Notes under the pieces: model-generated | Told to the model about the DNA's origin: nothing | Seen by the model: the letters and a program-made list of their open reading frames with translations, nothing else | Databases searched by the model: none | Source of the DNA: an uncultured Sphingomonadaceae bacterium | GTDB taxonomy: Bacteria > Pseudomonadota > Alphaproteobacteria > Sphingomonadales > Sphingomonadaceae | Reading direction: 5' to 3' | Assembly: GCA_902806235.1 (NCBI GenBank) | Contig: CADCVW010000043.1 | Coordinates: 1-64,000 of the forward strand | Length of the DNA stretch: 64,000 nt | Made by a program: the position numbers and the translations under genes | Shown: positions 1 to 17,987 of the stretch, one piece after another | Layout: the number at the start of each line of letters is the position of its first letter | Position numbering within the stretch: position 1 is the first letter of the stretch

Positions 1-298
1 GGTCGGGGTCGACGAGCGCGGCGACGACGCGGGAAACCCCCCCCGCCGCGAGCAGGTCGGCGCAGGCCGGGCCGCGGCGGCTGCGGTGCGCGCAGGGTTC
101 AAGCGTGGTGTAGGCGGTCGCTCCGCGCGCGGCCTCGCCCGCCTGTTCGAGCGCGACGGCCTCCGCGTGGGGCCGCCCGCCCGGCCGCGCCCCGCCGCGG
201 CCGACGACGCGGCCGTCCTTGACCAGCACGCAGCCGACGGAAGGGTTCGCCGCGGTCCGCCCCCGGCCGCGCTCCGCCAACGCCAGCGCCGCGCCCAT
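1..298 (-). CDS. ribD: Riboflavin biosynthesis protein RibD, N-terminal deaminase part (truncated by window start)
   Basis: Reverse-strand translation MGAALALAERGRGRTAANPSVGCVLVKDGRVVGRGGARPGGRPHAEAVALEQAGEAARGATAYTTLEPCAHRSRRGPACADLLAAGGVSRVVAALVDPD; HAE and TLEPCxHxxxxxPC zinc motifs. Frame not listed in the ORF track; a CTG start slightly upstream is possible. Confidence 0.9.
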   Translation of the reverse strand, partial: MGAALALAERGRGRTAANPSVGCVLVKDGRVVGRGGARPGGRPHAEAVALEQAGEAARGATAYTTLEPCAHRSRRGPACADLLAAGGVSRVVAALVDPD

Positions 299-315
299 CC
301 AGCGAAAATCTGCGG

Positions 316-12502: not shown

Positions 12503-14113
12503 ATGACGGTCGGCTCCGAAGCTTCCTACGACGTCGTGATCGTCGGCTCGGGCGCGGCCGGGCTCACCGCCGCGCTCAACCTCGCCGAGCGCTGCCGCGT
12601 GCTCGTGCTCGCCAAGGGCGGGCTGTCCGAAGGCTCCACCGCTTGGGCGCAGGGCGGCATCGCCGCCGTGCTGGAGGAGGGCGACAGCTTCGCGGACCAC
12701 GTCCGCGACACGATGGTCGCCGGCGCCGGGCTCAACGACCGCGATGTGGTTGAGTTCGTCGTGGAGGGCGCACCCGCCGCCATCGAGCGGCTCGCCGCGC
12801 TCGGCGTGCCGTTCAACGCCGGCGAGGCGGCGGAGCGCTGGCACCTGACGCGTGAAGGCGGGCACAGCCACCGCCGCATCGTCCACGTCGACGACGCCAC
12901 CGGCTGGGCGGTGCAGCAGGCGCTGGAGCGCGCGGCGGCGCTGAACCCCAACATCACGCTCCGCCCGCACATGGTAGCGGTGGACCTCGTCACCGGTCGC
13001 CATGCGGAGACGCCCAGCGCCGACCGGCGCGTGCGCGGCGTCTACGCCGTGAACAAGGAAACTGGCCGCGTCGAGCTGTTCACCGGCCGCGCGACCATCC
13101 TCGCCACCGGCGGCGCGGGCCGCGCCTACCTCTACTCCACCGCGCCCCGCGGCGCGACGGGCGACGGCATCGGCATGGCGTGGCGCGCGGGCTGCCGCGT
13201 GTCGAACATGGAGTTCATGCAATTCCATCCGACCTGCCTCTACAATCTGGAGACCAAGAACTTCCTGATCACGGAGGCGGTGCGCGGCGAGGGCGGGCAT
13301 CTCCGCTTGCCCGGCGACGGCCATCGCTTCATGCCCGATTTCGACCCCCGCGCCGAGCTCGCGCCCAGGGACGTGGTGGCGCGCGCGATCGACCACGAGA
13401 TCAAGCGGCTCGGGCTTGATTACGTCCACCTCGACATCAGCCACTTGGCCCCCGAGTTTGTCGAAGCGCATTTCCCGACGATCCACGCGAAGCTGTTGGG
13501 TTTGGGCATCGACATGCGGCAGGAGCCGATCCCCGTCGTCCCCGCCCAGCATTACACCTGCGGCGGCATCGTGGTGGACCGCAATGGGCGCACCGATCTC
13601 CCCGGCCTTTACGCCGCGGGCGAATGCACAGAGTCCGGGCTGCACGGTGCCAACCGGCTCGCCTCCAACAGCCTCCTCGAATGCTTCGTCTTCGGCGAGG
13701 CGGCGGCGAAGCACATCCTGGCCCACGCGGACGATCTTCCTCCGCCCCCGCCGATCCGCCCCTGGGACGAGAGCCGCGTCACCCATTCGGACGAGGAGGT
13801 CGTCGTGCACCACAACTGGCGGGAGATCCGCCGCTTCATGTGGGACTATGTCGGCATCGTCCGCACCACCAAGCGGCTGGAGCGAGCGCTGCGCCGGGTG
13901 GAGCTGCTGCGGGCAGAGGTGGACGAATATTACGGCCACTTCCGCGTGACACCCGACCTAATCGAGTTGCGCAACCTGGTCGAGGTGGCGGGGCTGATCG
14001 TCCGCTCCGCGCTCGCCCGCCGCGAGAGCCGCGGGCTTCACTACACGCTCGATTATCCGGAGATGCTGCCGAACGCGGTCGACACGGTGCTGACGCCGCC
14101 CGCCCACGGCTGA
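12503..14113 (+). CDS. nadB: L-aspartate oxidase
   Basis: YDVVIVGSGAAGLTAALNLA; GGLSEGSTAWAQGGIAAVLEEGDSFADHVRDTMVAGAGL; HRRIVHVDDATG; EFMQFHPTCLYN; GLYAAGECTESGLHGANRLASNSLLECFVFG. Confidence 0.96.
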   Translation: MTVGSEASYDVVIVGSGAAGLTAALNLAERCRVLVLAKGGLSEGSTAWAQGGIAAVLEEGDSFADHVRDTMVAGAGLNDRDVVEFVVEGAPAAIERLAALGVPFNAGEAAERWHLTREGGHSHRRIVHVDDATGWAVQQALERAAALNPNITLRPHMVAVDLVTGRHAETPSADRRVRGVYAVNKETGRVELFTGRATILATGGAGRAYLYSTAPRGATGDGIGMAWRAGCRVSNMEFMQFHPTCLYNLETKNFLITEAVRGEGGHLRLPGDGHRFMPDFDPRAELAPRDVVARAIDHEIKRLGLDYVHLDISHLAPEFVEAHFPTIHAKLLGLGIDMRQEPIPVVPAQHYTCGGIVVDRNGRTDLPGLYAAGECTESGLHGANRLASNSLLECFVFGEAAAKHILAHADDLPPPPPIRPWDESRVTHSDEEVVVHHNWREIRRFMWDYVGIVRTTKRLERALRRVELLRAEVDEYYGHFRVTPDLIELRNLVEVAGLIVRSALARRESRGLHYTLDYPEMLPNAVDTVLTPPAHG

Positions 14114-14162: not shown

Positions 14163-15521
14163 TCACGCCACCGCGCCCGCTTCGGCCCCGGCCGCCGCGC
14201 GCAGCCGTTCCACGGCCCGCTCCCGCCCGATCAGCGGCAGCAGCGCGCGCATGTCCGGCCCGTGCTCGCGGCCGGTAAGCGCCAGGCGCAGCGGCAGGAA
14301 CAGCGCGCGACCCTTGCGCCCCGTCGCCTTGAGCGCGTCGGTCAGCGCGCCCCACGGATCGCCCGCCCAGTCGATGCCCCCGGCTTCGTCCGCCGCGAAG
14401 AGGAGGAAGGCGCGGTCGTCGTCGCCGAAGACTTCAGGCGGGGCGACCGATCCTTCGACCACTGCCCACCAGTCCGCCGCCTCCGCCACCCGCGCCAGGT
14501 TGGGCCGGATCGCCTCCCACGCCGCCCGGTCCATCCCCGCCGGCAACCGGTCGGCCACCGCCTCCCACGGCAGTCCGTGGACGATCCGCGCGTTCAGCCC
14601 CTCCAGCTCGTGCAGGTCGAAGCGCGCAGGGGCACGACCGAAGTCGGCGAAGGAGAAGCCCTCGGCCAGGCGGGAGAGGTCGGCCACGGGCTAGACCGGC
14701 TTGGCCGTCCCGAGCCGCGCGAGCAGGGCGGCGACCGCGACCGGCTCGATCCTCGCCTCGCGCAGCTCGTCCGCGCCGAAGGACCCGAGCCGCTTGCTCA
14801 GCTTGCCCTCGTCGCCGACGAGCAGCGCGGCGTGGGCGAACCGCGGCGGTTCGGCGCCGAGCACGTCGAACATCTGCACCTGCGCCGCCGTGTTCGATAC
14901 ATGATCCTCGCCGCGCACCACATGAGTAACGCCCATCTCGACGTCGTCGACCACGGAGGGGAAGAGGTAGAGCCAGCTCCCGTCTTCGCGCCGGACCACG
15001 GGATCGGACAGCTGGCGCGGGTCGAAGCGCTGGGAGCCGCGGATCAGGTCGTCCCATTCGATGGGCGAGTCCTCGTCCAGCCGGAAGCGCCAGTGCGGCC
15101 GCCGCCCTTCCGCCTCCAGCGCCGCGCGCTCGGCGTCCGACAGCCGCAGCGCCGCCCGGTCGTAGATCGGCGGCAGCCCGCGCCCGAGCAGCACCTTGCG
15201 CTTGATGTCGAGTTCCGCCGCCGTCTCGTAGGCCGGGTAGATGCGCCCCGCGGCTCGCAGGCGCTCGAACGCTTCCTCGTACAGCGCGGACCTCGCCGAC
15301 TGGCGCGCTTCCCCGTCCAGGGTCAGCCCGAGCCATCGGAGGTCCGCGCGGATCGACTCTACGAATTCCTCCTTCGAGCGCGCGGCGTCCGTGTCGTCGA
15401 TGCGGAGCCACATCCGCCCCCCGTTCGCCCGCGCCCACAGCCAGTTGTGGAACGCGGCCCGGATGTTGCCGATGTGAAGCCGCCCGGTGGGCGACGGCGC
15501 GAAGCGGGTGACGACGGACAT
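14163..15521 (-). pseudogene. gltX: Glutamate--tRNA ligase reading frame interrupted by one in-frame TAG (14691-14693)
   Basis: Catalytic half (14691..15521: MSVVTRFAPSPTGRLHIGNIRAAFHNWLWARANGG...KLSKRLGSF...LLARLGTAKPV*) and C-terminal half (PVADLSRLAEGFSFADFGRAPARFDLHELEGLNARIVHGLPWEAVADRL...) are in the same frame, separated only by TAG. Confidence 0.85.
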
Positions 15522-17051: not shown

Positions 17052-17987
17052 ATGAAGCTCCTCGCCGGCAACTCGAACCTGCCGCTCGCGCGCGCCATCT
17101 CCGACTATCTCGAGCTGCCGCTGACGGAGGTCAGCGTGCGCCGCTTCGCCGACGAGGAGATCTTCGTCGAGGTCCACGAGAACGTCCGCGGCGAGGACGT
17201 GTTCGTGCTCCAGTCGACCGCTTACCCGGCGAACGACAACCTGATGGAGCTGCTGATCTGCATCGACGCGTTGCGCAGGGCCTCGGCTAGACGGATCACC
17301 GCGGTGGTGCCCTATTTCGGCTACGCCCGGCAGGACCGGAAGCCCGGTCCCCGCACGCCGATCTCCGCCAAGCTCGTCGCCAACATCATCACCACCGCGG
17401 GCGCCGACAGGGTGCTGTCCGTCGACCTCCACGCCGGGCAGATCCAGGGCTTCTTCGACATCCCCACCGACAATCTCTACGCTGCGCCCGTGATGTCCGC
17501 CGACATCCTGGCGCGCTGGGCGGACCGGGCGATCACCGTGGTGTCGCCGGACGTCGGCGGCGTGGTGCGCGCCCGCACGCTCGCCAAGCGGCTCAGGAAC
17601 GCGCCCCTCGCCATCGTCGATAAGCGGCGCGAGCGCGCGGGCGAATCAGAGGTGATGAACATCATCGGCGAGGTGGAGGGCCGCTTCTGCGTCCTCGTCG
17701 ACGACATCGTTGATTCGGCCGGCACGCTCTGCAACGCCGCCGCGGCGCTCCGCGCGGGCGGCGCGGAGGAGGTCGTCGCCTACGTCTCCCACGGCGTGCT
17801 GTCGGGCGGGGCCGCGGCCCGGGTGGCGAAATCGGAACTTGCCGAGCTCGTCGTCACCGACTCCATCTGCATGCCGGACGCGGTAAAGGAGGTGGCGAAC
17901 CTGCGCCAGCTCACCATCGCCCCGCTTCTCGCGGAGGCGATCAAGCGCATCGCGGACGAAAGCTCGGTGTCGAGCCTGTTCGACTGA
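17052..17987 (+). CDS. prs: Ribose-phosphate pyrophosphokinase
   Basis: [80 protein letters not shown]. Confidence 0.95.

Follow-up and report, generated by a model that had tools for sequence, protein, structure and literature searches.

The window analysed here is a stretch of 64,000 nucleotides within contig C43 (71 kb) of a draft assembly (2.72 Mb in 112 contigs, about 90% complete), whose host belongs to a Sphingomonas-type family and has Sphingomonas and others of that group as its nearest named relatives. Positions 15521 to 14163 on the minus strand form a single 452-codon frame closed by a terminal stop, in which HIGN, KLSKR and the C-terminal region of a GluRS are all present. This gene, which we call gltX2, contains exactly one internal stop, a TAG. 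The features of the locus are:

12503..14113, plus strand: nadB-like gene (L-aspartate oxidase), convergent neighbour of gltX2, frame intact; a distant match to the SdhA profile, with no stops
14163..14690, minus strand: gltX2 frame continued past the stop, with the remaining stem-contact part and the anticodon-binding region; none of 57 conserved positions changed
14691..14693, minus strand: in-frame TAG, codon 277 of gltX2; aligned with Glu in 72 of 83 homologues and with a stop in none
14691..15521, minus strand: N-terminal reading frame of gltX2 (GluRS2), 276 aa, running to the amber; HIGN and KLSKR intact, PF00749 matched
17052..17987, plus strand: presumably prs (ribose-phosphate pyrophosphokinase); 82% identical to the prs of genome G011, and next to gltX2 in several relatives too

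At the edge of the window, ribD (positions 2-310, minus strand) is truncated by the contig start, and a further ribD-like piece lies on contig C75.

The sequence-only reading had described a single in-frame amber codon with no change of frame, and homology running across the stop bears this out. The TIGR00464 profile, whose cut-off is 290 bits, gave 257 bits for the stretch upstream of the TAG and 40 bits for the stretch downstream; with the TAG read through, the score was 305 bits, and the read-through frame matched PF00749 with E = 1.4e-62. The best relative aligns with the read-through product across residues 1-444, so that homology spans the TAG; a chance juxtaposition of two reading frames is ruled out by the shared frame and by this continuous homology. 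Protein identity to the named nearest relatives reaches at most about 74% over the N-terminal part, and the relatives compared for gltX2 belong to genera other than the host's.

The TAG had also been placed between the catalytic and anticodon-binding domains, which did not hold: it lies before the end of PF00749, in the stem-contact part of the protein. In the host's own GluRS1, the PF00749 catalytic domain covers residues 74-376 and reaches far past the point aligned with the TAG, while in gltX2 the Anticodon_2 match is confined to residues 392-443. An AlphaFold model of GluRS2 from a relative (L005; 442 aa, same numbering, mean pLDDT 89.6) places the site in a loop that links helices 260-269 and 283-288. 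In terms of GluRS domains, the modelled stop position is within the stem-contact region and not at the catalytic/anticodon-binding border. The GTG noted two codons past the TAG is present (14687-14685, minus strand), at what is an ordinary variable residue among relatives.

The gene had been taken for an ordinary GluRS, and a second gltX had been suggested because alphaproteobacteria that lack GlnRS often carry two copies; a complete GluRS1 is indeed encoded on contig C40, and the interrupted gene is not the canonical one. The genome encodes three class-I Glx proteins, namely this GluRS1, the interrupted gltX2 and a GluQRS on contig C41; a profile search found no GlnRS over the cut-off, and GatB, the GatCAB subunit searched, is intact. 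The catalytic motif is HIGN in gltX2 versus HIGG in GluRS1, gltX2 falls in a clade separate from the GluRS1 of the same genomes, and its product is 38% identical to the host's GluRS1 versus about 70% to the GluRS2 of relatives. Proteobacterial GluRS2 is marked by H-phi-G-N where GluRS1 has H-phi-G-G; the GluRS2 of Acidithiobacillus ferrooxidans and Helicobacter pylori places Glu on tRNAGln and not on tRNAGlu, and GluRS2 is found together with GatCAB and, as a rule, in genomes that lack GlnRS, a typical but not strict association since some genomes have both (Dasgupta and Basu 2014, PMC3927822). By motif and phylogenetic placement, the interrupted gene is a GluRS2 and not a canonical GluRS, and its product is predicted, by analogy with the characterised enzymes, to charge tRNAGln with Glu. 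As a GluRS2 beside an intact GluRS1, it is therefore not a broken essential single-copy gltX. A comparison by eye of the specificity residues in GluRS1 between genomes with and without GluRS2 gave no clear difference.

The comparison with relatives that had been proposed for the TAG shows how isolated it is. The 83 aligned homologues carry GAG (57), GAA (15) or other sense codons at codon 277, and none has a stop there; a Glu codon is the likely ancestor, in line with the suggested change from GAG to TAG. Of positions with at least 90% conservation among relatives, 0 of 57 are changed in the half after the stop and 9 of 147 in the half before it, mostly conservatively. Ranked from the lowest identity, the N-terminal half stands 8th of 77, somewhat beyond the typical divergence; the C-terminal half shows average divergence, and third-position GC is 0.93 before the stop and 0.91 after it. 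Because the half behind the TAG is fully conserved, the stop must be very recent or not real. An old, decaying paralogue or pseudogene, one of the options raised earlier, is rejected: we found no second lesion and no relaxed constraint, and the damage is limited to the TAG.

We then searched some 0.92 Mb of distinct sequence, roughly one third of the genome, for isolated stops, meaning lone stops flanked immediately on each side by coding signal, and judged the candidates by homology. Besides gltX2, three otherwise intact conserved genes in this third of the genome carry an isolated in-frame stop:

L245:14450-14452 (contig C14), minus strand: TAA at residue 167 of sdhA; 951.9 bits over the full profile
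L158:18983-18985 (contig C95), minus strand: TAG in the agmatine deiminase gene (aguA); PF04371 matched across the stop with E = 5.5e-95
L201:5143-5145 (contig C101), plus strand: TAA just past the GDSL motif of a GDSL autotransporter esterase, identified by homology

The interrupted sdhA is the only copy in the genome. It differs at 3 of 339 invariant positions, all conservatively, and is otherwise intact, and where it has the stop its relatives carry Phe or Tyr; a real ochre codon in the sole gene for the succinate dehydrogenase flavoprotein is implausible. The aguA stop sits at the TTEQCLL motif, where Glu would be expected in this family, and an unusual Leu follows within the usual NPNRN motif. 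All four stops are a single G>T/C>A change away from a plausible codon, either that of the relatives or, for aguA and the autotransporter, one guessed from the motif; since this class accounts for about 48% of the single-base nonsense targets, the pattern is no more than suggestive. A control scan of 400 kb of an intact relative (G047), judged by eye, gave no clear isolated stop, which proves little because about 1.7 cases would be expected there at an equal rate.

Whether GluRS2 can be lost was addressed in a survey of 301 genomes of the family, 280 of them good. GluRS2 is kept in 267 of these 280 and is absent from all sampled members of two genera, g93 (n = 5; G101, G170, G225, G266 and G302) and g76 (n = 2; G084 and G161; 99-100% complete). 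These genomes have one GluRS over the cut-off and no GlnRS, and in the five genomes compared this lone enzyme is 33-35% identical to canonical GluRS1 and falls outside its clade; G288 shows a resembling pattern. Sequence divergence and tree position suggest that the GluRS1 and GluRS2 pair was jointly replaced in both genera by one foreign-looking GluRS, which in turn suggests that the two enzymes usually act as a pair. In G011 (99% complete), a vertically inherited GluRS1 and GatB are kept while gltX2 and GlnRS are absent, and on its 1.24-Mb contig C12 (L242) two unrelated genes lie between ribD/TonB-like genes and prs, the place of gltX2 in relatives; loss of gltX2 alongside a canonical GluRS1 therefore does seem possible. 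G017 also has no GluRS2, but is weaker evidence for dispensability because it has no sdhA match either and its ribD locus is rearranged. The absences in G089, G157, G176 and G018 were rejected as losses, as these are fragmented drafts and G089 holds a C-terminal fragment. In a single-contig genome that is 86% complete, gltX2 appears as two overlapping matches in different frames (G008:C1:74247-75556), probably a frameshift or indel error. A literature search found no work on the essentiality of gltX2 in alphaproteobacteria.

Taken together, we consider it most probable, at roughly two chances in three (0.66), that the TAG is a single-base consensus error of a metagenome-type assembly in an otherwise normal GluRS2 gene. 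Sequencing error had been among the options first listed, and it fits best because gltX2 is otherwise intact and equally isolated stops occur elsewhere in the assembly, including in the sole sdhA; the near-universal retention of GluRS2 in the family points the same way. Against it, the stops are few (four), the G>T/C>A pattern carries little weight and G011 has apparently lost gltX2. From these observations we infer a wrong base at the TAG. In the living cell, an intact gltX2 would then supply the usual second GluRS, which, if it behaves like characterised proteobacterial GluRS2, would charge tRNAGln with Glu for amidation by GatCAB.

A genuine and very recent nonsense mutation or strain-level allele that inactivates gltX2, leaving GluRS1 to charge both tRNAGlu and tRNAGln, is the main rival, possible but doubtful. 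The host does have intact GluRS1 and GatB, and G011 manages with a vertical GluRS1 and GatB in the absence of gltX2 and GlnRS; moreover, two of the three other interrupted genes are plausibly non-essential, so that some of the stops could be genuine nonsense alleles. Yet GluRS2 is retained almost throughout the family, the seven g93 and g76 genomes swapped GluRS1 as well, which suggests that GluRS1 usually needs GluRS2, gltX2 carries no second lesion, and the sole sdhA of the same assembly is interrupted by a stop as well. We give little credence to a real amber from which the cell still obtains a working GluRS2, be it full-length through regulated or background readthrough or assembled from two pieces; neither of these earlier suggestions found positive support. 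Readthrough or suppression yielding the full-length enzyme would agree with the strong constraint past the stop, and TAG followed by C, as here, is a leaky stop context. It is nonetheless very unlikely: the suppressor tRNA with a CUA anticodon that had been proposed is not among the 38 tRNA genes found, RF1 is intact, and every relative compared has a sense codon here. The tRNA result is no proof of absence, because the tRNA set of this incomplete assembly is itself incomplete, with seven expected tRNAs missing (Phe, Ile, and some Leu, Arg, Thr and Ala). General recoding of TAG is rejected on the same tRNA search and RF1 together with the use of TAG as a common terminator, which closes 122 of the 473 long coding-like frames sampled (some of them antisense shadows). 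Since the sdhA and autotransporter stops are TAA, which an amber suppressor does not read, one such suppressor would not explain the set. Still harder to credit is a two-piece GluRS, made of the 276-aa catalytic fragment and a C-terminal fragment restarted at the GTG at 14687. The GTG is conveniently placed as the second codon past the TAG and the site is in a loop of the modelled relative, but that loop is inside the stem-contact region, which makes a two-piece enzyme unlikely; no ribosome-binding site is apparent upstream of the GTG, whose position is variable, and no relative has gltX2 split at codon 277.

As the sequence artefact that we favour, the TAG is most likely not new biology, and its practical value is caution: because this assembly has isolated, false-looking stops, other calls of broken genes made from it should be viewed with care. 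Were the stop real and the gene functional, the supply of Glu-tRNAGln would surprisingly hinge on getting past a stop codon, by readthrough or by a way around it; were it real and inactivating, the host would be a natural experiment on whether GluRS1 of an alphaproteobacterium can charge both tRNAs. The apparent joint replacement of the pair in g93 and g76 is worth study in its own right.

Among known systems, gltX2 resembles the GluRS2 of alpha-, gamma- and epsilonproteobacteria in its H-phi-G-N motif, in the canonical HIGG GluRS1 and GatB alongside and in the lack of a GlnRS over the cut-off, and differs in that the uninterrupted frame expected of a proteobacterial GluRS2 is broken here by the amber at codon 277. 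The fragment before the stop is similar in length (276 aa) to GluQRS (YadB), which has the catalytic domain without the anticodon-binding domain; unlike GluQRS, it reaches none of the GluQRS cut-offs and has gltX_bact as its best match, and a separate GluQRS is encoded on C41. Naturally split aminoacyl-tRNA synthetases do exist, such as the alpha/beta LeuRS of Aquifex, and gltX2 likewise spreads one enzyme over two neighbouring reading frames. A split synthetase would be cut at a domain border, carry start signals for both parts and be conserved in relatives, whereas gltX2 is cut away from the border, shows no apparent start signal for the second part and is split this way in no relative. A further likeness is to the isolated nonsense errors of draft and metagenome assemblies, with which gltX2 shares a lone stop, an intact conserved gene around it and further cases in the same assembly.
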